A stretch of DNA of 50,827 nucleotides from the NCBI GenBank assembly GCA_028344575.1, contig JAOMBO010000006.1, forward strand, positions 1-50,827. Direction: 5' to 3'. A program made the position numbers and the translations under genes. The stretch is from Candidatus Nitrosopelagicus sp. GTDB lineage: Archaea > Thermoproteota > Nitrososphaeria > Nitrososphaerales > Nitrosopumilaceae. The notes under the pieces were generated by a model. That model saw nothing but the letters and a program-made list of their open reading frames with translations, ran no database searches and was not told the origin of the DNA. Below, piece by piece: positions 8,844-19,887 of the stretch. Each line of letters starts with the position of its first letter. Within the stretch, counting starts at the first letter, position 1.

Positions 8844-9599
8844 CTATTTTGGCCCCTGGTGCCTTAATGCAGCAAGAATTTCTTTTTCAAATTTTCCCAA
8901 ATTTTCATCCTCTGCAACACGAGGTCTTTTGTAATCAATATCAAGAGATTTTTTTACAACTGATGGTCTGTGGCTAAATACTGCAACACGTGAACCAAGT
9001 ACAGCTGCCTCAGGCACATTATGCGTTACAAATATGATGGTTTTTTTCGTTTTTTGCCAAATCATTTGCATTTCAACTAAAAGTAAATCTCTAGTCTGAG
9101 AATCAAGGGCTGCAAAAGGCTCATCCATTAATAATACATCAGGATCCATCACAAGTGCACGTGCAATAGCAACACGCTGTTTCATTCCAGTAGATAATTG
9201 ATACGTGTATGAATTTGCAAACTGAGATAATTGCATCATGTCAAGATATCTTTTGGATATATCATGACGTTCATTCTCAGGTATGCCAGCAACTTTCAAG
9301 CCATATTCAACATTATCTTCCACAGTTAACCACGGAAATAATGCACCTTCCTGAAATACCATTATTCGGTCTGGTCCAGTGTTAACAAGTTTTTTTCCAT
9401 CAAGTAATACTTCTCCATCATCAGGTTTTTCTAATCCTGCTAAAATTCTAAGAAAAGTTGATTTACCACATCCAGATGGACCAACTATACAAACAAACTC
9501 CCCATCGTCAACAGTAAGATTCACTCCACCAATTGCTTTGAGAGGTTTACCATCATGCTGAAAATATTTTATAATATTTTTTGCTTCTATCTTACCCAT
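8844..9599 (-). CDS. ABC transporter ATPase (SsuB/TauB/NrtD type)
   Basis: A 251-residue nucleotide-binding subunit. Walker A is GPSGCGKST, the signature is LSTGMKQRVAIARAL and Walker B is VLLMDEPFAALD, followed by an H-loop in IFVTHNVPEAA. The start is set at ATG 9599 (MGKIEAKNI) because GAGGAG lies about eight bases upstream; an in-frame ATG at 9614 would add five residues. It overlaps the end of the substrate-binding protein gene by eight bases (9592-9599), so it is translationally coupled. Confidence 0.92.
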   Translation of the reverse strand: MGKIEAKNIIKYFQHDGKPLKAIGGVNLTVDDGEFVCIVGPSGCGKSTFLRILAGLEKPDDGEVLLDGKKLVNTGPDRIMVFQEGALFPWLTVEDNVEYGLKVAGIPENERHDISKRYLDMMQLSQFANSYTYQLSTGMKQRVAIARALVMDPDVLLMDEPFAALDSQTRDLLLVEMQMIWQKTKKTIIFVTHNVPEAAVLGSRVAVFSHRPSVVKKSLDIDYKRPRVAEDENLGKFEKEILAALRHQGPK

Positions 9600-10623
9600 T
9601 GTAATTCTCCTCATTTGATGTCACTGATATATTTTCATGATAGAAAAGTCCATCAAGTGAGTAACCATCACGTCCAAGATATCCTAATGCATCAGCACGT
9701 TCGGCAAAAGTGTAAACAGAATTTTCCAGAGGTTCAGATGTTATTATTATATTTGAAAAGGATTTTTCCACAATGTTTTGAGGTAATGTTCGTCCCATAT
9801 AGCTATTCAAGAATTCATTGTAAAGTTTTTTAGATTCATCAGGATGATTATTGATCCATTGGGCAGTTTTTTCATTTGCATTAATCCATTTTTTAATTAT
9901 TTCAGGATTTTTTTCAATGTAATCTGATCTACCAATTAGTAACACTGATGAAAACTGATTTTCTGGCCAAAATTCGTTTTCATCAAACAGGCGAACTCCA
10001 TCAAGTTCTTCAACTAACATGGTTGCCCAAGGTTCAGGGACCCATGCACCATCAATGTCACCTTTTGCAAAAAGTGTATAGATATCAGGATTTGCTATAT
10101 TCAAAACAAAAACATCTCCTCCTTTTTCAGCAGTGACTAAACCATTTTCTGCAAGATAATGTCGAAGAGATACATCTTGTGTGTTACTGATTTGAGGAGC
10201 TGCAATTCGTTTTCCAGAGTAATTTTCAATCAAGTCCAATCCAGAGTTTTTTTGTATTACAAAACTTGCGCCACCACTAGCAGCACCTGCAAGAATTTTC
10301 AAGTCATTGCCATCAGATTTTAGAAAACCATTGATCACAGGACCAGGACCAACATATGCAATATCAACAGAATTTGAGAATATTGATTCGATTACCTGAG
10401 GACCACTATCAAAAATCTTCACTTGGATATCCAAATCAGCATTAAGATTATTTGCAAAAGTTTGAGTTTCCATTCCTATAATGGGTACTGCATGAACTAC
10501 ACTTGGAAAGAATGCCACACGGATATTATTTTCAGAATAATTAACAGAAGATTGAGTAAAGCCTACAAAAGCAATAATTCCAATGACTACAATTACGGCA
10601 CCAATTAGATATGAGATTTTCAT
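9592..10623 (-). CDS. ABC transporter substrate-binding protein (NMT1/SsuA-like)
   Basis: A 343-residue periplasmic-type binding protein of the sulfonate/nitrate/taurine/thiamine-precursor class. An N-terminal hydrophobic segment (residues about 5-24) acts as signal anchor. The mature part begins NIRVAFFPSVVHAVPI and includes SVDIAYVGPGPVING and IDGAWVPEPWATMLVEE, which are typical of this class. No lipobox Cys is seen, so it is probably held by the uncleaved N-terminal helix. It is first in the importer operon. The class does not predict the ligand; no assimilatory sulfonate or nitrate genes lie nearby. Confidence 0.85.
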   Translation of the reverse strand: MKISYLIGAVIVVIGIIAFVGFTQSSVNYSENNIRVAFFPSVVHAVPIIGMETQTFANNLNADLDIQVKIFDSGPQVIESIFSNSVDIAYVGPGPVINGFLKSDGNDLKILAGAASGGASFVIQKNSGLDLIENYSGKRIAAPQISNTQDVSLRHYLAENGLVTAEKGGDVFVLNIANPDIYTLFAKGDIDGAWVPEPWATMLVEELDGVRLFDENEFWPENQFSSVLLIGRSDYIEKNPEIIKKWINANEKTAQWINNHPDESKKLYNEFLNSYMGRTLPQNIVEKSFSNIIITSEPLENSVYTFAERADALGYLGRDGYSLDGLFYHENISVTSNEENYNG

Positions 10624-10755: not shown

Positions 10756-11931
10756 ATGAAACAAAAATCAATACTTGCATTTTCAGGTGGATTAGATACA
10801 TCAGTAGTTGTAAAGTATATGCAAGATATGCACGACATGGATGTAATTACAGTAACAGTGGATGTTGGTCAAGGAGATGACAGTACCAAAATTGCAAAAA
10901 AAGCAAAAAAGCTAGGAGTTAAAAAACATTACAACATAGATGCAAAAAAAGAATTCGTTACAGATTATATTTTTCCAGCAATCAAAGCTAACGCATTATA
11001 TCAAAAGAAATACTGTCTTGCAACTGCACTAGCAAGACCATTAATTGCACACAAAGTACTTGAAATTGCAAAAAAAGAAAAAGTTTCATCATTAGCACAT
11101 GGATGTTCAGGAAAAGGAAATGATCAAGTGCGTTTTGATAATACATTGAGGGCCGGTTCTAATCTTCCAATCATTGCACCAATTCGTGATATGAACCTAG
11201 ACCGCGAAACCGAATTGAAATTTGCAAATAAACATGGAATTGAGATAGATAGTGTTGCAAAAAAATTCAGTATTGATCAAAATTTATGGGGAAGGGCAAT
11301 TGAAGGTGGAGTTTTAGAGAATCCATTCAATGAACCACCAGACGATGCATTCATTTGGATAAAGACAAAAAATTTACCTGAAAAACCAACATATTTGAAA
11401 ATCAAATTCAATAAAGGAATACCAGTTGAAGTGGATGGTAAAAAAATGCCTCCGGTGAAATTAATAGAATATATGAATAAAAAAGCAGGTTCCCAAGGCG
11501 TCGGAATAGTTGATCATATTGAAGACAGAGTAGTCGGAATAAAATCACGTGAAGTGTATGAGACACCAGCAGCAATTTGTCTAATTGAAGCACACTCAGA
11601 TCTTGAAAAAATGGTACATACAAAACATGAAACTAAATTCAAAACATTAGTAGATGATGAATGGGCATGGTTAGTTTATTCAGGATTATGGGATGATCCA
11701 TTAAGAAAAGAATTGGATGAATTCATTGAACAAGCTCAAAAACGTGTAACTGGAACTGTAAGATTGAAACTTCACAAAGGAAATGTCAGAGTTGTCGGCA
11801 GAGAGTCAAAATATTCTCTTTACAGTCACGACATAGCCACTTATGGAAAAGATTCCACATTTGATCAGAAATTGGCAAAAGGATTTGTTGAATTATGGGG
11901 AATGCAGTCAACAGAAGCTAATAAATTCTAG
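10756..11931 (+). CDS. argG: Argininosuccinate synthase
   Basis: A 391-residue enzyme that joins citrulline and aspartate with ATP, the penultimate step of arginine synthesis. The N-terminal pyrophosphatase loop SGGLDTSVVVKYM and HGCSGKGNDQVRF are family hallmarks, and the length is normal. It is followed after 20 bases by lysW1, so arginine synthesis sits at the head of the LysW-dependent cluster. This supports the idea that the cluster feeds both arginine and lysine. Confidence 0.96.
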   Translation: MKQKSILAFSGGLDTSVVVKYMQDMHDMDVITVTVDVGQGDDSTKIAKKAKKLGVKKHYNIDAKKEFVTDYIFPAIKANALYQKKYCLATALARPLIAHKVLEIAKKEKVSSLAHGCSGKGNDQVRFDNTLRAGSNLPIIAPIRDMNLDRETELKFANKHGIEIDSVAKKFSIDQNLWGRAIEGGVLENPFNEPPDDAFIWIKTKNLPEKPTYLKIKFNKGIPVEVDGKKMPPVKLIEYMNKKAGSQGVGIVDHIEDRVVGIKSREVYETPAAICLIEAHSDLEKMVHTKHETKFKTLVDDEWAWLVYSGLWDDPLRKELDEFIEQAQKRVTGTVRLKLHKGNVRVVGRESKYSLYSHDIATYGKDSTFDQKLAKGFVELWGMQSTEANKF

Positions 11932-11951: not shown

Positions 11952-12119
11952 ATGAATTGTCCAGAATGTGACGCAAATATGAATATCCCAGAAGATGCCG
12001 CTGTAGGTGAAATTGTTTCTTGTGGAGATTGTGGTGCAGACTATGAAATCTCAAAGAAAGAAGGTTCCAATATTGAATTAAAAGAAGCAGAAACCGTTGG
12101 CGAAGACTGGGGAGAGTAA
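11952..12119 (+). CDS. lysW: Amino-group carrier protein LysW (copy 1, Glu-ending)
   Basis: A 55-residue acidic carrier protein. The alpha-amino group of glutamate or aminoadipate is attached to the gamma-carboxyl of its last Glu, protecting it during lysine/arginine synthesis. Two Cys pairs, CPEC near the start and CGDC near residue 24-27, bind zinc. The C-terminus is the canonical EDWGE. An AGGTG stretch precedes ATG 11952. The TAA stop is directly followed by the TTG start of lysX. A second copy at 17756 ends in Gln instead. Confidence 0.95.
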   Translation: MNCPECDANMNIPEDAAVGEIVSCGDCGADYEISKKEGSNIELKEAETVGEDWGE

Positions 12120-12974
12120 TTGCAGAAAATTTGCATAGTATTTGATAGGTTAAGAACCGAGGAAAAATTACTGCAAAAAAATGCAGAGGAATTAGGTTAT
12201 GAAACCTCTATGGTTGATGCAAAGATTACTAGTTTTGATACAGATAGTAAACCTGAAAATTTTGAATTCGGTGATGTGGTTTTAGAACGTTGTGTTAGTT
12301 ATTATCGTGGATTACATTTTACAGCATGTTTAGAATTCATGGACATACCAGTGATTAACAAATTTGACGTTGCAAATACTTGTGGAAATAAAATGATAAC
12401 ATCAATGTTGTTAAAGAAAAATAACATTCCAACTCCAAAGACTTACTTTTCTTTTTCAGCGGAAACAGCATTAGATAATTTTGAAAAAGTTGGATACCCA
12501 TTAGTTATAAAACCAATAATTGGTAGTTGGGGAAGAAGTGTCATGCCAGTTAAAGATAAAGATACAGCAGAAGCTGTAATTGAAAATAGACAGGTAACAG
12601 ATGGACCTCAGGACAGAATTTATTATTTACAAGAAATGATTGATCGTCCACCACGAGATATTCGTGTAATAACTGTAGGAGACCAAGCTATATCAGCAAT
12701 GTATAGAAAATCATCTGGAGGTTTCAAAACAAACATTGCACTAGGTGCAGACCCAGAACTTTGTGAAATTACAAAAGAGATGGAAGATTTGTGTGAAAAA
12801 ACATCGAAAGCAGTTGGCGGAGGAATTTTAGGAATTGACTTGATGGAAGACAAAGAGAAAGGATTAGTTGTACATGAGGTAAACAATACTGTGGAGTTTA
12901 AAGGATTGGTAAAAGTCTCAAAGAAAAACATTCCAAAAGAGATGATCGACTATGCAATTCATAATATCAAGTGA
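12120..12974 (+). CDS. lysX: LysW ligase, probably LysX (aminoadipate-specific)
   Basis: A 284-residue ATP-grasp ligase that joins an amino acid to the C-terminal Glu of LysW. It shows the ATP-grasp features KPIIGSWGR (about 131-139) and the metal site EVNNTVEFKG near the C-terminus. Substrate choice in the family is linked to a short motif. Here residues 201-205 are GFKTN, the pattern I recall for LysX (alpha-aminoadipate), whereas the paralogue at 17920 has NWKTN, the ArgX (glutamate) pattern. The start is TTG 12120, flush with the lysW1 stop. Family certain; substrate moderately sure because the gene follows argG. Confidence 0.83.
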   Translation: MQKICIVFDRLRTEEKLLQKNAEELGYETSMVDAKITSFDTDSKPENFEFGDVVLERCVSYYRGLHFTACLEFMDIPVINKFDVANTCGNKMITSMLLKKNNIPTPKTYFSFSAETALDNFEKVGYPLVIKPIIGSWGRSVMPVKDKDTAEAVIENRQVTDGPQDRIYYLQEMIDRPPRDIRVITVGDQAISAMYRKSSGGFKTNIALGADPELCEITKEMEDLCEKTSKAVGGGILGIDLMEDKEKGLVVHEVNNTVEFKGLVKVSKKNIPKEMIDYAIHNIK

Positions 12975-13017: not shown

Positions 13018-14064
13018 ATGAAAGTAGGAATTGTAGGAGCCTCAGGATATGTAGGAGGAGAAGTTCTCAGATTACTTCTCAGTCACCCTAAAGTTGAAGT
13101 TTCGATGGTAACCTCAAGACAACATGTAGGAAAATTTCTGCACAAAGCTCAACCTAGCCTAAGAGGTTTTACTGATTTAAAATTTTCAGAGCTAGATTAT
13201 GAGAAAATGAGTGATAATTGTGACGTCGTTTTTACCGCAGTTCCACATGGAACAGCAACTGAGATTGTAAAGGCATTGTATGACAGAGGAATGAAGATTA
13301 TTGATTTGAGTGCAGATTATCGTTTGCATAATCCAGAAGATTATGGGAAATGGTACGGATGGGAACACCCACATCCAGATTATTTAGAAAAATCAGTATT
13401 CGGAGTACCAGAATTACACAGAGAAGAAATTAAAAAATCACAATTAGTTTCATGCCCAGGATGTATGGCAGTAACTTCAATGCTTGCATTAAATCCATTA
13501 ATTAAAAATAATTTAATTGATGAAGATCATATTGTTGTTGATTCAAAAATTGGTTCTTCAGGTGCAGGTGCAGGTGCAGGAACAGCACATGCAATGCGTG
13601 CAGGAGTTATCAGACCATACAAACCAGCAAAGCACAGACATACAGGAGAAATTGAACAAGAATTAAGTCAAACAGCAGGTAGAAAAATCAAAGTATCAAT
13701 GAGTCCACACGCAGTAGATGTGGTTAGAGGAATTTTATGTACAAACCATACATTCCTTAAGAAAGATATTGATGAAAAAGAACTTTGGAAAATATACCGT
13801 GCAGAATACAATGATGAACGATTTGTTAGATTAATTAGAGATAAAGACGGTCTACATAAATTCCCAGACCCAAAATTCTTAGTTGGTTCAAATTTCTGTG
13901 ATATTGGATTTGATCTAGACAGAGATAACAACCGATTGATTGCTCTATCGGCATCAGATAACCTAATGAAAGGTGCAGCAGGTTCTGCAATTCAAAACAT
14001 GAACGTCATGGCAGGATTTGATGAGTTCGAAGGAATTATGTATTCCCCACTAACACCAGTATAA
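13018..14064 (+). CDS. lysY: LysW-aminoadipyl/glutamyl phosphate reductase (LysY/ArgC)
   Basis: A 348-residue NADPH-dependent reductase turning the LysW-bound acyl phosphate into the semialdehyde. The N-terminal Rossmann motif GIVGASGYVGGEVLRLL and the active-site Cys in VSCPGCMAVTSML are present, as is SSGAGAGAGTAHAMR. Its place between lysX and lysZ makes it the LysW-pathway enzyme rather than an N-acetyl-glutamyl-phosphate ArgC. With only one copy here it probably handles both the lysine and the arginine branch. Confidence 0.92.
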   Translation: MKVGIVGASGYVGGEVLRLLLSHPKVEVSMVTSRQHVGKFLHKAQPSLRGFTDLKFSELDYEKMSDNCDVVFTAVPHGTATEIVKALYDRGMKIIDLSADYRLHNPEDYGKWYGWEHPHPDYLEKSVFGVPELHREEIKKSQLVSCPGCMAVTSMLALNPLIKNNLIDEDHIVVDSKIGSSGAGAGAGTAHAMRAGVIRPYKPAKHRHTGEIEQELSQTAGRKIKVSMSPHAVDVVRGILCTNHTFLKKDIDEKELWKIYRAEYNDERFVRLIRDKDGLHKFPDPKFLVGSNFCDIGFDLDRDNNRLIALSASDNLMKGAAGSAIQNMNVMAGFDEFEGIMYSPLTPV

Positions 14065-14067
14065 TAG

Positions 14068-14868
14068 ATGATTACGATAAAAATTGGTGGAAGCGTAGTA
14101 GATAATTTACATCCATCAACAATAGACGATATCAAAAAAGTTGTAGAACAAGAAGGTGTCATACTAGTTCATGGCGGAGGCAAAGAAGTAACAAAGGTTA
14201 CAGAACAATTAGGTAAAGAACCTAAATTTGTTGTATCACCTAGTGGGATAAAGAGTCGATATACAGACAAAGAAACTTCTGAAATTTTTACAATGGTAAT
14301 GTCAGGAAGAATTAACAAAGCAATTGTTCAAATGTTACAAAAAAATGGAATTAATGCTATTGGATTGTCAGGTATGGATGGGAAAACAATTGAGGCCAAT
14401 AGGAAAAAGAAGTTAATGATTATGAATGAAAAAGGAAGAAAACAGGTAATTGATGGCGGATATACAGGTAAAATTTCAAATGTAAATTCAGATTTAATCA
14501 AAACTATCATGGATAAAGGATACACTCCGGTAATTTCCCCAATTGCAATAAGTGAAGAGTCTGAATTTCTAAATGTTGACGGAGACAGGGCAGCAGCCAA
14601 TGTAGCAGGGCATGTCAAGGCAGATAAGGTGTTATTTATTACAAATGTAGACGGATTGCTCATGGAAGACAAATTGGTTGAAAAATTATCATTACAAGAG
14701 GCAAAAGAAATGATGCCAAAAATTGGATTTGGCATGGAAAAAAAGATTCTTGCTGCAACAGAAGCACTTGAAATGGGAGTTACAGAAGCATTAATTGCAA
14801 ACGGTCAAAAAGAAAATCCAATTTCATCCGCTATAGCACATAACAATTGTACGGTGATAACTAAATGA
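14068..14868 (+). CDS. lysZ: LysW-aminoadipate/glutamate kinase (LysZ)
   Basis: A 266-residue amino-acid kinase that phosphorylates the side-chain carboxyl of LysW-bound aminoadipate or glutamate. It carries IKIGGSVVDN at the N-terminus, VHGGGKEV near residue 35 and the nucleotide site FITNVDGLL. It starts three bases after the lysY stop and overlaps lysJ by four bases (ATGA, 14865-14868). The absence of N-acetylglutamate genes nearby and the LysW neighbours favour LysZ over ArgB. Confidence 0.92.
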   Translation: MITIKIGGSVVDNLHPSTIDDIKKVVEQEGVILVHGGGKEVTKVTEQLGKEPKFVVSPSGIKSRYTDKETSEIFTMVMSGRINKAIVQMLQKNGINAIGLSGMDGKTIEANRKKKLMIMNEKGRKQVIDGGYTGKISNVNSDLIKTIMDKGYTPVISPIAISEESEFLNVDGDRAAANVAGHVKADKVLFITNVDGLLMEDKLVEKLSLQEAKEMMPKIGFGMEKKILAATEALEMGVTEALIANGQKENPISSAIAHNNCTVITK

Positions 14869-16046
14869 GTGAAGATAAATTTCTTGGTAATCTTTACCAA
14901 AGATTTCCAGTAACAATAGAAAAAGGCGTGGGTGCACATGTATGGGATACCGATGGTAAGGAATACATTGATTGTATGGGAGGATATGGAGTCGCATTAC
15001 TTGGACACCAAAATGAAAGAGTTACCAATGCGTTGAAAGCACAACTTGAAAAAATTATTACAGTTCATAGTTCACTTTACAGTAAGACTCGTGAAGAATT
15101 TTTGGAAAATCTTTTCAAAGTTGCTCCAAAAAATTTGTCACAAGTTCATCTGAATAATAGCGGTGCAGAAGCAATTGAGGCTGGAATGAAATTTGCACGT
15201 AAGTTTACAGGAAAAACCGAGATGGTTGCAATGAATGGTTCATACCACGGAAAAACACTAGGTGCACTTTCAATTACATTTAATCCAAAATATAGAAAGG
15301 CGTTCAAACCACTTGTGGAAAAAGTATCATTTTCACCTTTCGGCGATATTGAAAAGCTTCGTGAAACAGTTAATGATCAAACAGCATTTGTAATTTTAGA
15401 ACCTATTCAAGGAGAAAGCGGTATTCATGTGGCCCCTGATGGATTTTTACAAGATGTTAGAAAATTATGTGATGAAAAAAATATTCTATTAATTTATGAT
15501 GAAATACAAGCAGGACTGGGACGTACAGGAAAGATGTGGGCACATCAACATTGGGATACCGCACCAGACATACTTTGTTTAGCAAAAGGAATTGCAGGAG
15601 GAGTACCAATGGGCGCAACATTAGTCAAACCAGAAATTTTAGACTGTATCTCAAAGGGAGAACATTCATCAACGTTTGGAGGAAATCCATTATCATGTGC
15701 AGCAGGAACCGCTACAATGCAGGCATTGACACAAGATAAACTAGTGGAAAATTCTGCAAATATGGGAAAAATATTCAGAGAAGGATTGGATAAATTAAAA
15801 GAAAAACATTCGGTAATTAGAGAGGTTCGCGGTAAAGGATTGATGATAGGAATTGAGTTAAAATTTGAAGTTAGAGATATACTAATGGAAGGTATTCAAA
15901 AAGGATTACTTTTACTATATTCGGGTAGAAATATCTTAAGGTTACTTCCACCACTAGTCATAACACAAGAAGATGTAACAAAATCTTTAGAAATACTAGA
16001 TGAATTATTTACTAATGAGGAAAAAAGAAAAAATGGCCAAGGATAA
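14865..16046 (+). CDS. lysJ: LysW-lysine/ornithine aminotransferase (LysJ)
   Basis: A 393-residue class-III PLP aminotransferase converting the LysW-bound semialdehyde to LysW-lysine or LysW-ornithine. The PLP lysine lies in CLAKGIAGGVPMGA, preceded by LIYDEIQAGLGRTG, and HSSTFGGNPLSCAAG is the phosphate-binding region. It overlaps lysZ by four bases and the downstream regulator gene by 14 bases. Same family as ArgD; context decides the name. Confidence 0.92.
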   Translation: MSEDKFLGNLYQRFPVTIEKGVGAHVWDTDGKEYIDCMGGYGVALLGHQNERVTNALKAQLEKIITVHSSLYSKTREEFLENLFKVAPKNLSQVHLNNSGAEAIEAGMKFARKFTGKTEMVAMNGSYHGKTLGALSITFNPKYRKAFKPLVEKVSFSPFGDIEKLRETVNDQTAFVILEPIQGESGIHVAPDGFLQDVRKLCDEKNILLIYDEIQAGLGRTGKMWAHQHWDTAPDILCLAKGIAGGVPMGATLVKPEILDCISKGEHSSTFGGNPLSCAAGTATMQALTQDKLVENSANMGKIFREGLDKLKEKHSVIREVRGKGLMIGIELKFEVRDILMEGIQKGLLLLYSGRNILRLLPPLVITQEDVTKSLEILDELFTNEEKRKNGQG

Positions 16047-16452
16047 GATTGATGAGAAGATTTTAGACTATTTGAGGAATGATTCTAGAGAATCATTTGT
16101 AGAGATTGGAAAAAAATTAAAGCTTTCAGAATCAGCAGTTCGTAGAAGAGTAAAGAATTTGGTAGATAACAAAGTCATTGAAAGATTCACAATTGAAATG
16201 GGAGAGACCAATTCTACAAGTGCAATAGTTTTGATATCTGTTGATTCAACTACAGATACATCAAAAGTGTCATCCAGATTAACAAAATTGTACGCAGTGA
16301 AAACAGTTTATGAAATTACAGGACAGTATGATATCAGTGTGATCATAAAAGCGCCAAGCATAACTGAAATTAATGCTGCAATTGATGAACTAAGAAAAAT
16401 TCCAGGAGTAATAGATACAAACACAGTAATTATTCTGAGAACAATCAGATAA
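16033..16452 (+). CDS. lysM: Lrp/AsnC-family regulator, LysM-like
   Basis: A 139-residue transcription regulator: N-terminal winged HTH (KIDEKILDYLRNDSRESFVEIGKKL, SESAVRRRVKNL) and C-terminal RAM ligand-binding domain with a GQYDISVIIKA strand. ATG 16033 is chosen because the translation from there (MAKDKIDEK) matches normal family starts; an ATG at 16000 would reach further into lysJ. In Sulfolobus an Lrp homologue called LysM sits in the same cluster and responds to lysine, so a local regulatory role is likely. A 17-bp inverted repeat follows its stop at once. Confidence 0.85.
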   Translation: MAKDKIDEKILDYLRNDSRESFVEIGKKLKLSESAVRRRVKNLVDNKVIERFTIEMGETNSTSAIVLISVDSTTDTSKVSSRLTKLYAVKTVYEITGQYDISVIIKAPSITEINAAIDELRKIPGVIDTNTVIILRTIR

Positions 16453-16567: not shown

Positions 16568-17749
16568 ATGACTGATCCGAATCACTATGCAGATATGTAT
16601 AACTCATATGAAAAAACTCCAAAAAAAATTCGAGTATTAGATTCAACTTTACGAGAAGGGGAACAACATCCAGGAGTTTCATTTACAAATAAACAAAGAA
16701 TTCAGATAGCATGGATGCTAGATTATTTTGGTGTGGATCAGATTGAAATTTCACCCGTAGTATCACCAGATCATAAAGAAGCAACAAAAACAATTATCCA
16801 ACAAGGATTAAAGGCAGATATTGTTTCACATGGCAGAGCGTTAAGACAAGACATTGACACATCATTATCATGTGATGCAAAATGGGTAGCTGCATATCTA
16901 GGAATATCAGATATTCATCTAAAAGATAAATTACGAATTACAAGAGAGGAAGCATTAGAACGCGCAGTAGATACAGTAACTTATGCAAAGGATCATGGAT
17001 TAAAAATTAGATTCACGGTAGAAGATGGAAGTAGAGCAGAACCTGAATTTTTATTACAATTATGTAAATCAATTGAAGATGCAGGAGTTGATAGAATTAG
17101 CTTACCAGATACAGTTGGAATAATGCGACCAATTGGGATGTATAATTTTGTTAAGAGAGTTCGTTCAGAAATAACTACACCGCTTGATGTTCATGTACAT
17201 AATGATATTGGATTTGCACTAGCAAATGCATTTTCAGCATGCGATGCAGGAGTTGATCAAATCCATACTACAATAGATGGAATCGGAGAAAGAACAGGCA
17301 TACCAGCATTAGCAGAAGTAGCAGTTGCGTTAACATATCTCTTCAAATCTCCAAATGATTTTAGATTAGATATGTTAGCAGATCTTTCAAGACTCATAGA
17401 ACAATACACCACAATTCAACCATATGATTCAAAACCAATTGTAGGGTCATCAGCTTACAAGCATAAAGCAGGAACACATTTAGCTGCAATACTCAATAAT
17501 CCAGCAGCCTATGAACCAATTCCACCAAGAGTAGTCGGAAATAGAAGAAAAATAGTATTTGGTGAGTTAGCAGGTAAAACAGGTGCAAGTTATCTTATGT
17601 CATTATTAGGAATAGAGAAAGATCCTGAGACTGCAAAGAATGTTGCAGCAGGGTTGAAAAATCTCAGAATGGGTGATGTTTTAGAAATTCCACTAGAGGA
17701 TCGCCTTGAACGTAAAATAATTAAGGATGAAAAAATAGAGGAAAAATAG
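16568..17749 (+). CDS. hcs: Homocitrate synthase
   Basis: A 393-residue DRE-TIM metallolyase condensing acetyl-CoA with 2-oxoglutarate to homocitrate, the first committed step of the aminoadipate route to lysine. The N-terminal DSTLREGEQ motif matches homocitrate synthases (isopropylmalate synthases usually read DTTLRDGEQ). LDVHVHNDIGFALANA supplies the metal His pair, and GIGERTGIPAL follows. Its length lacks the long regulatory domain of LeuA. It is followed after six bases by lysW2, which supports the lysine role. Other genes of homocitrate-to-aminoadipate conversion are not seen beside it. Confidence 0.87.
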   Translation: MTDPNHYADMYNSYEKTPKKIRVLDSTLREGEQHPGVSFTNKQRIQIAWMLDYFGVDQIEISPVVSPDHKEATKTIIQQGLKADIVSHGRALRQDIDTSLSCDAKWVAAYLGISDIHLKDKLRITREEALERAVDTVTYAKDHGLKIRFTVEDGSRAEPEFLLQLCKSIEDAGVDRISLPDTVGIMRPIGMYNFVKRVRSEITTPLDVHVHNDIGFALANAFSACDAGVDQIHTTIDGIGERTGIPALAEVAVALTYLFKSPNDFRLDMLADLSRLIEQYTTIQPYDSKPIVGSSAYKHKAGTHLAAILNNPAAYEPIPPRVVGNRRKIVFGELAGKTGASYLMSLLGIEKDPETAKNVAAGLKNLRMGDVLEIPLEDRLERKIIKDEKIEEK

Positions 17750-17755
17750 GTAAAA

Positions 17756-17923
17756 ATGGCAAATTGTCCTGAATGTGATGCAAACATAGGTATCCCTGAC
17801 GATGCAGTAGAAGGCGAAATTGTCACCTGTCCAGATTGCGGTGCAAGTTATGAACTTAGCAAAGCATCCGAAGGTTTTGAGTTAAAACCAGCTCAAACAG
17901 TCGGAGAGGATTGGGGACAGTGA
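17756..17923 (+). CDS. lysW: LysW-like carrier protein (copy 2, Gln-ending)
   Basis: A second 55-residue LysW. It keeps both zinc Cys pairs (CPEC near the start, CPDC near residue 24-27) and the acidic body, but its C-terminus is EDWGQ: the last codon before TGA is CAG. In known LysW proteins the last residue is Glu, whose side chain is the attachment site. As written, this carrier cannot be charged unless the Gln is deamidated or the protein works otherwise. AGGT lies upstream of ATG 17756. The stop overlaps the GTG start of argX (GTGA). Confidence 0.92.
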   Translation: MANCPECDANIGIPDDAVEGEIVTCPDCGASYELSKASEGFELKPAQTVGEDWGQ

Positions 17924-18765
17924 CCGGCAAAATTTCAATCCTTTACGATACAATCCGTCTTGAAGAAAAATTACTAATTGAATCTGCAAAGAAAAATGAT
18001 ATCGCAATAGATATGGTAGATTGTAAAAAATTGTTTTTGGATTTGAATGAAAAAAATTGCTTAGAGGGACCAGTGCTACAAAGATGTGTTAGTTATTATA
18101 GAAATTTACACTCTACTGCAGCTCTTGAAGGTCAAGGTGCCAAAGTAGTGAATTGTTTAAACACAGGTATCTTTGCGGGAAATAAATTATTTACACATAT
18201 GTTGTTGCAAAAAGCAGGAGTTCCAACGCCTGATGCAACAGTTGCATTCTCAAAAGATTCTGCACTAGAAGCATTGAAAAAACATGGATTTCCAAAAATA
18301 ATTAAACCAACAGTAGGTAGTTGGGGAAGAATGGTTTCCAAGTTAAATGACATGGATGCTGCAGAAGGAATTATAGAAGGAAGAGAAGCAATGTATCCAA
18401 TTCATCACATTCATTTTCTAGAAGAGTTTGTTCAACGTCCTCCAAGAGATCTTCGGGTAATTGTCATAGGAGATAATGTCGCAGCTGGAATATACCGAAA
18501 TTCTGGAGATGGTAATTGGAAAACAAATACACATCTTGGTGGATCTGCAGAAACATGTGAGATTACTAATGAACTTGAAGACATATGTATTAAAGCAAAA
18601 GACGCAGTGTTTGGAGATATTGTTGGAATTGACTTAATGGAGAGTAATGAGAAAGGTATGGTCGTACATGAAATAAACAATACAACCGAATTTAGAAATG
18701 TTGTAAGAGTTACAGGTGTAGATATTCCAGGATTAATGTTAGAACATGTTAAGGGGTTAGCATAG
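17920..18765 (+). CDS. argX: LysW ligase, probably ArgX (glutamate-specific)
   Basis: A 281-residue ATP-grasp ligase paralogous to the one at 12120. It has KPTVGSWGRM, RPPRDLRVIVIG and the C-terminal metal site EINNTTEFRN. Residues 199-203 read NWKTN, the motif I recall as marking ArgX (glutamate-LysW ligase). The start GTG 17920 is chosen because it overlaps the lysW2 stop by four bases; an upstream in-frame TTG at 17911 would overlap by 13. Its carrier neighbour is the Gln-ending LysW2, so which carrier it charges is an open question. Confidence 0.82.
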   Translation: MTGKISILYDTIRLEEKLLIESAKKNDIAIDMVDCKKLFLDLNEKNCLEGPVLQRCVSYYRNLHSTAALEGQGAKVVNCLNTGIFAGNKLFTHMLLQKAGVPTPDATVAFSKDSALEALKKHGFPKIIKPTVGSWGRMVSKLNDMDAAEGIIEGREAMYPIHHIHFLEEFVQRPPRDLRVIVIGDNVAAGIYRNSGDGNWKTNTHLGGSAETCEITNELEDICIKAKDAVFGDIVGIDLMESNEKGMVVHEINNTTEFRNVVRVTGVDIPGLMLEHVKGLA

Positions 18766-19887
18766 ATGGATGAACATTTAGAGACTTCCAGATATGCAAT
18801 TAAAACTTTAGAAAAAGCATTACGAATCTACACTCCATCATTAAGTGAAAAGGCTTTGGCTGATTTTCTTGCAGATAGATGTGATGATTTAGGATTTAGA
18901 GATATTCATCAGGATGAAGTTGGAAACTTGATTGCAACTAAAGGCTCAGGAGAACCAAAAATAATGTTATGTGGTCATATGGATGTGGTTCCAGGAAAGA
19001 TTAAGGTAAGAATAGAAGGCAATATGCTACATGGCAGAGGTGCCTCAGATGCAAAAGCACCACTAATTGCAATGTTATTTGCTGCTGCAAGTATAGGAGA
19101 GGATCAAGGAACTATAACATTTGTTGGTGCAGTTGATGAAGAAGGTAATGCAACAGGAATAAAGAATTTAGTAAAAAATAAGCCGGATGTAGATTATGCA
19201 GTTTTTGGAGAACCAAGTAGCATTCAAAAAGTTACAATTGCCTACAAAGGTCGTTTAGCAATTAATCTTAGAGTGAATGTAAAGGATAGTGCTCATGCAA
19301 GTGCACCTTGGTTGGCAAAAAATGCAATAGAAGAAATATCATCAGTTGCAACTGAATTGAAAAATGAGTTAGAAGGAGGTCAAGAAGAGAAAAGTAAGGG
19401 AATGATGCTTACTGCAACCCTTACAGAAATTCGTGGAGGTACAAGCCATAATGTTACACCAAAAGAATGTGTAGCAACATTAGATATTAGAATTCCAGTA
19501 GACATGAATTGTAACAATGTTGAAGAAAAAATAACCAGAATAGTCAATGAAATATCAACAAAAAGAGAGATCGAAGTTTTGTATTCGGTAATTGATGAGA
19601 CAGAACCATTTGAAGCAGCACATAATTCACCATTAGTAAGAGCATTAACATTATCCGTTTTGGATGTAGAAAAGAAAAGACCAATGTTAATTAGAAAAAC
19701 AGGTACAGGAGACATGAATGTAATAGGAAATCAATTGAAGATACCAGTAATTACATATGGCCCAGGAGATCCTCATGAGGCTCATACAATTGATGAAAAA
19801 GTTTCAATTGATGAATTTGTCAAAGGAATAGAAATTCTAAAAAAATCACTACATCATTTAAAAAGACTGCATGATAGAACGAAATAA
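18766..19887 (+). CDS. lysK: LysW-lysine/ornithine hydrolase (LysK)
   Basis: A 373-residue M20-family zinc carboxypeptidase that releases lysine or ornithine from LysW. Metal and catalytic motifs are visible: CGHMDVVPG, GRGASDAK, the catalytic Glu pair in VDEEGNATG, FGEPSS, and the C-terminal His in PHEAHTIDE. It starts directly after the argX stop and overlaps the diphthine synthase start by one base (TAATG). It completes the set of LysW-pathway enzymes in this window. Confidence 0.92.
   Translation: MDEHLETSRYAIKTLEKALRIYTPSLSEKALADFLADRCDDLGFRDIHQDEVGNLIATKGSGEPKIMLCGHMDVVPGKIKVRIEGNMLHGRGASDAKAPLIAMLFAAASIGEDQGTITFVGAVDEEGNATGIKNLVKNKPDVDYAVFGEPSSIQKVTIAYKGRLAINLRVNVKDSAHASAPWLAKNAIEEISSVATELKNELEGGQEEKSKGMMLTATLTEIRGGTSHNVTPKECVATLDIRIPVDMNCNNVEEKITRIVNEISTKREIEVLYSVIDETEPFEAAHNSPLVRALTLSVLDVEKKRPMLIRKTGTGDMNVIGNQLKIPVITYGPGDPHEAHTIDEKVSIDEFVKGIEILKKSLHHLKRLHDRTK

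Follow-up and report, generated by a model that had tools for sequence, protein, structure and literature searches.

The second LysW-type carrier (LysW2) encoded in a 50,827-nucleotide stretch of Candidatus Nitrosopelagicus DNA, hereafter the window, ends in Gln; it is a variant within a known family and lacks one of that family's defining features. On the strength of sequence comparison and analogy, we consider it an evenly balanced proposition that LysW2 is a working lysine-branch carrier, made as a Gln-ended pro-form that would be deamidated to Glu and then charged, with LysK as the likeliest deamidase. The Gln of this lysine-branch carrier is under strong purifying selection.

A Gln-ended carrier in an arginine-lysine gene cluster

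The 55-residue LysW2 (MANCPECDANIGIPDDAVEGEIVTCPDCGASYELSKASEGFELKPAQTVGEDWGQ, translation of the plus-strand ORF) has two CxxC pairs and a tail reading GEDWG-Gln, the CAG codon being followed directly by a TGA stop (17921-17923). Both carriers of the window pass NF041070, the NCBIfam LysW/ArgW model (91.6 bits for LysW2 and 87.7 bits for LysW1, cut-off 75), and LysW2 also matches PF21344 at 50.2 bits, above the cut-off of 27. LysW2 thus has the profile score, the two CxxC pairs expected to bind zinc and the length (about 54-57 residues) of the family, but not the C-terminal EDWG-Glu attachment residue that defines LysW/ArgW. Because its tail is EDWG-Gln, it is a variant and not a standard member. 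The ORF translations bear out the earlier note, which had read a Gln end (CAG) in this copy and a Glu end in the paralogue at 11952, with both zinc Cys pairs, the length and EDWG retained. The nearest named relative of LysW2, from Candidatus Nitrosopelagicus, is 100% identical across the carrier, which assigns the window to a marine ammonia-oxidising archaeon or a near relative.

The GTG start of the downstream ligase shares its first base (17920) with the last G of the Gln codon, which makes the translational coupling suggested earlier plausible. The CAG TGA ending is present in all of the 80 best among 215 relatives found in genome contigs (picked by protein similarity). The overlapping start codon was considered as the force behind Gln and ruled out, since GAG TGA overlaps a GTG start just as well; moreover, Gln is retained despite a differing stop and overlap in families f2, f3, f12, f17 and f35.

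The genes of the cluster follow one another in the order of Table 1. A single ArgC/LysY reductase set is probably common to the arginine and lysine branches. The protein upstream of LysW2 is read as a homocitrate synthase from gene context, the substrate not being settled by profile: it scores 371.7 bits with TIGR02146, under the cut-off of 413.55, and its family-level scores are below cut-offs. Adjoining the cluster, an ABC-transporter ATPase and a substrate-binding protein are encoded on the minus strand (8844-10623); read from their ORFs, they resemble a taurine/nitrate-type uptake system.

Table 1. Features of the arginine-lysine gene cluster in the window
Feature	Position	Strand	Evidence
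Argininosuccinate synthase ArgG	10756..11931	+	label from reading sequence
LysW1, EDWG-Glu-ended comparison copy, 55 aa	11952..12119	+	NF041070 match, ORF translation
ArgX-type ligase, signature EFK-Gly, GSWGR motif	12120..12974	+	TIGR02144 305.5 bits
ArgC/LysY reductase	13018..14064	+	TIGR01850 418 bits
[LysW]-aminoadipate/[LysW]-glutamate kinase ArgB/LysZ	14068..14868	+	NF010662 311.2 bits, above cut-off
ArgD/LysJ aminotransferase	14865..16046	+	TIGR00707 440.5 bits
Lrp/AsnC-type regulator	16000..16452	+	label from reading sequence
Homocitrate/isopropylmalate-synthase family protein	16568..17749	+	PF00682, HCS_D2
LysW2, EDWG-Gln-ended carrier	17756..17923	+	NF041070 91.6 bits, PF21344 50.2 bits
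LysW2 terminal Gln codon CAG	17918..17920	+	last G is first base of ligase GTG start
LysX-type RimK-family ligase, signature EFR-Asn, GSWGR motif	17920..18765	+	TIGR02144 307.5 bits, over cut-off; PF08443
LysK/ArgE-type M20 hydrolase	18766..19887	+	TIGR01902 268.6 bits, over cut-off

The earlier note had called the partner of LysW2 ArgX-like, an assignment that the alignments overturn. The specificity signature was placed by us directly after EF[K/R], by alignment to 3vpd, 3vpb and 5k2m, which we take to be Thermus LysX, Sulfolobus ArgX and Thermococcus LysX, respectively. The signature published for Sulfolobus LysX is Asn-Thr, and that for ArgX is Gly-Phe (PMC10433800, in part). At this site, the ligase beside LysW2 has Asn (EINNTTEFRNV), whereas the first ligase of the cluster has Gly (EVNNTVEFKGL), and the solved chain nearest to the former is 3vpd; the partner is thus LysX-type and not ArgX-type. 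Another candidate motif, GNWKTNT versus GGFKTNI, proved to be the wrong one and was dropped. Because the LysX-type partner lies between the homocitrate-synthase-like gene and LysK, LysW2 belongs to the lysine branch.

The same association holds among 163 non-identical carrier-ligase pairs, a set biased towards LysW2 relatives. Gln carriers adjoin Asn-type ligases in 123 cases and Gly-type ligases in 5, and Glu carriers adjoin 29 Gly-type, 3 Asn-type and 3 other ligases. The tail-recognising GSWGR motif is present in the window ligase and in 162 of the 163 carrier-adjacent ligases. The sole exception, GSHGR, lies near the Gln carrier of G343 (loci L115 and L234).

Distribution of Gln-ended carriers

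In a sample of 398 genomes of the phylum, the Gln-tail pattern was matched in 87 and the Glu-tail pattern in 246. Within the window's family, 62 of 63 genomes have a Gln-ended copy and 61 of 63 have a Glu match; elsewhere in the order, the Gln-ended copy occurs in 10 of 11 genomes from other families. A further 15 Gln-pattern genomes lie outside the order; 14 of them coincide with profile matches and one (G277) is a chance match. EDWG tails ending in Glu or Gln were found in 235 of 250 genomes of the family, mostly one of each among the matches listed. Two genomes of the order depart from this: G147 (family f1), whose two copies end in Glu although the operon is intact, and G536 (f4), also with two Glu ends. 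The outcome named in advance as refuting, that all relatives would read Glu, is therefore the opposite of what the family shows, and a private mutation or sequencing error as the source of Gln is ruled out by the Gln copies across the family, the order and beyond.

Only two terminal residues were seen. The loci contain 252 LysW ORFs when duplicates are counted; 174 end in Gln, 78 in Glu and none in another residue, a tally that is weak by itself because most loci were picked by tail patterns. A pattern admitting any last codon was matched in 285 of 398 genomes, versus 266 with Glu or Gln (246 + 20); its final three letters can also be TGG, a sense codon, and one of the two Gln-pattern matches of G433 does end in TGG. 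Among the matches listed, nine places with other letters were opened, four of them in the 19 extra genomes; all were non-LysW, and no third terminal residue was found there. Carriers on three bacterial plasmids (Deinococcus, Pseudalkalibacillus and Streptomyces) are all Glu-ended.

Two database entries appear to be contaminated or misnamed. Locus L059 (JAKUUR010000053.1), filed as Candidatus Thioglobus autotrophicus, has a marine-group-I-like LysW2-LysX pair, and its bin seems contaminated. Locus L085 (JAICHE010000049.1) bears the name Nitrososphaeraceae, yet its position on the LysX tree is beside a Nitrosopumilaceae contig; it is probably misnamed or contaminated.

Genomes whose only carrier ends in Gln

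A Gln match without a Glu match was found in 20 of the 398 genomes. According to an NF041070 profile search, 16 of these 20 have exactly one LysW, which is Gln-ended; five are single contigs (G433, G526, G550, G264 and G367), and the remaining 11 are G257, G271, G278, G285, G299, G354, G359, G379, G292, G364 and G440. Three others (G244, G444 and G578) have two LysW copies, both ending in Gln, and G028 has one Gln copy, its Glu copy possibly being unassembled. Two LysX/ArgX ligases were found in each of the 19 Gln-without-Glu genomes searched, that is, all but G028; in G359 the second ligase is 0.4 bits under the cut-off, and G367 has a third, weak one. A LysK-type hydrolase scores over the cut-off in all 27 genomes searched, including each of the 20 with a Gln match only, and ArgJ was absent from the 26 genomes searched for it, including all 16 with a sole Gln carrier.

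Judging from these genes, the 16 genomes are assumed to synthesise both lysine and arginine themselves. As for the diaminopimelate route, its LysA passes the cut-off only in G305, a Glu genome, with weaker LysA-like matches in G433, G444, G526, G550, G578 and G536. In the five f3 genomes of this list (G433, G444, G526, G550 and G578), the LysA-like protein scores 235-248 bits against a cut-off of 297.9, and another lysine route is possible there. In three f3 genomes (loci L211, L212 and L213), argX lies in an otherwise intact operon with no adjoining carrier gene. Since G433, G526 and G550 have kept ArgX with no carrier beside it, their Gln carrier must serve both ligases.

Exchange of Glu and Gln among relatives

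The two ends alternate between close relatives. Congeners differ at the tail, with Gln in G367 and Glu in G332, or Gln in G359 and G379 and Glu in G305, G339 and G384, and family f17 is mixed (Gln in G264, G292, G364 and G440, Glu in G311 and G394); second, weak profile matches in G305 and G394 (20 and 25 bits) were not counted as LysW. The exchange also affects the other carrier: the ArgX-adjacent copy ends in Gln in G018, G444 and G578 versus Glu in G017 and G493, and the copy not beside LysX ends in Gln in G244 and G245 versus Glu in G246. On a tree of 104 partner ligases, obtained by a quick search and with some long branches, at least 10 Glu/Gln changes are required.

A ligase residue tracking the exchange was sought in six Glu/Gln contrasts, and none was found: no column differs in all six, and the one that differs in five has unlike letters. 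Four of the contrasts set distant ligases against each other, with 60-98 columns differing, and the weight therefore falls on the two close ones. In these, 7 of 282 (f12 g63) and 8 of 280 (G147) ligase columns differ consistently, and the one column common to both has different letters.

These comparisons bear on the possibility that LysX uses the Gln tail directly, joining aminoadipate to the terminal alpha-carboxyl or activating or exchanging the side-chain amide, with no Glu stage. Other RimK-family enzymes join their substrates to a terminal alpha-carboxyl, the partner of LysW2 belongs to this family (PF08443), and Gln-ended proteins occur as sole carriers. Furthermore, attack of the amide oxygen on ATP has been proposed for PupQ (PMC8599861, in part). 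However, alpha-carboxyl chemistry should tolerate other side chains, whereas only Glu and Gln ends are seen, which fits side-chain chemistry. Moreover, the ligases do not track the exchange in the two closest contrasts, and the published linkage, in Thermus, is the gamma one (PMC10433800, in part). Direct use of the Gln tail is, in our judgement, unlikely.

Selection on the terminal codon

The terminal codon of LysW2 behaves differently from what free exchange would predict. Among 115 LysX-partnered carriers, chosen by their KPAQ-like motif, 114 end in Gln and one, that of G147, in Glu. On the tree of these carriers, a single change is seen at the first position of the last codon, against 18 at the third position of the Gly codon before it. 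Selection thus actively maintains Gln in LysW2, though the family overall can switch. Were Glu and Gln fully equivalent, such strict retention in Nitrososphaerales would not be expected, which implies something beyond a neutral pro-form.

This retention weighs against deamidation by chance chemistry or some other general amidase, under which Glu versus Gln would be biologically meaningless. Such indifference would agree with exchanges that recur while gene neighbourhoods stay unchanged, but not with a single change against 18 at the neighbouring silent site; in addition, spontaneous Gln deamidation is slow. We hold this explanation to be improbable. Very improbable is the scaffold, decoy or regulator offered by the earlier note, which here would mean that LysW2 stays uncharged and binds LysX, with LysW1-Glu as the carrier for both amino acids: a single LysW serves both ligases in Sulfolobus (PMC10433800, in part) and most genomes of the family (61/63) also have a Glu match, but the 16 sole-Gln-carrier genomes with two ligases contradict it, as do the two Gln copies of G244, G444 and G578 and the Glu-ended LysW2 in the intact operon of G147. 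The other option of that note, Pup-like deamidation, stays the best explanation.

Proposed maturation of LysW2

A common mature form is favoured, and the decoy reading disfavoured, by three observations: Gln-ended sole carriers lie beside ligases and a hydrolase, the ends are exchanged repeatedly without a common ligase change, and no third residue occurs. A Gln side chain offers no free gamma-carboxyl for attachment, and hydrolysis of its amide to Glu is the simplest path to such a form. According to the deamidation model, LysW2 would be made Gln-ended and its side-chain amide hydrolysed once to yield Glu. The likeliest hydrolase would be LysK/ArgE, encoded directly downstream of LysX. LysK ordinarily releases lysine or ornithine from LysW by cutting the gamma-glutamyl amide that joins them, which leaves the carrier with a Glu end; it is proposed as the deamidase because in a Gln end the bond is identical except that ammonia is the leaving group. 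LysX would then presumably attach alpha-aminoadipate in the usual way to the resulting gamma-carboxyl, the attachment point published for the terminal Glu in Thermus (PMC10433800, in part).

The closest solved chain to the putative deamidase is 5xoy, a [LysW]-lysine hydrolase (173 bits); deamidase activity of LysK does not appear in the literature consulted and is our own proposal. The presence of LysK does not discriminate between the readings, and genomics cannot prove its role, because the Glu genomes searched carry LysK equally. LysK may also require lysine or ornithine as the leaving group, ammonia being perhaps a poor one. If LysK is the deamidase, the pro-form would be unchargeable until LysK is made, which would couple activation of the carrier to completion of the pathway and might be the reason why Gln is retained.

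Relation to known carriers and to Pup

The solved LysW/ArgW chains 3wwl, 3vpb and 5k2m resemble LysW2 in length, zinc Cys pairs, EDWG tail and a GSWGR ligase neighbour, but they end in Glu, where the amino acid is attached in LysW/ArgW (PMC10433800, in part). No report of a Gln-ended LysW was found in the open-access literature searched, a body without the main LysW biochemical papers; the Gln end is not treated in the lysine/arginine parts of PMC5797428 or the LysW parts of PMC4745020. In a metabolic model of Nitrosopumilus maritimus, one LysW gene is named beside argX and the LysW lysine route is gap-filled (PMC6038301, in part).

A close parallel is Pup of actinobacteria, also a small protein, whose gene in some species specifies Gln although ligation proceeds through a terminal Glu. 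Dop acts both as deamidase of PupQ and as the enzyme that breaks the isopeptide; a ligase forms, and a hydrolase breaks, the same gamma-amide (PMC8599861, in part). LysW shares with Pup the alternation of Gln and Glu ends among species. No homology is claimed: Pup tags proteins for the proteasome, whereas LysW is a carrier of amino acids; the enzymes acting on Pup resemble glutamine synthetase, LysX is an ATP-grasp enzyme, and deamidation of LysW is so far only proposed.

In the accepted account, the C-terminal Glu of LysW is the attachment site, yet ammonia-oxidising archaea and relatives in several families encode Gln there, in some genomes in the only carrier, which points either to an unrecognised maturation step of the carrier or to a differing chemistry. 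It is conceivable, at somewhat less than an even chance, that the lysine carrier of a whole archaeal clade is an inactive Gln pro-protein activated by LysK, the last enzyme of the pathway, or, more radically, that LysX charges the Gln tail by an undescribed linkage. With LysK as activator, charging of each new carrier would depend on LysK, a self-priming loop parallel to that of PupQ and Dop and evolved independently on unrelated proteins. Deamidation of LysW2, if true, would add an independent second example of the Gln/Glu switch already described for Pup.
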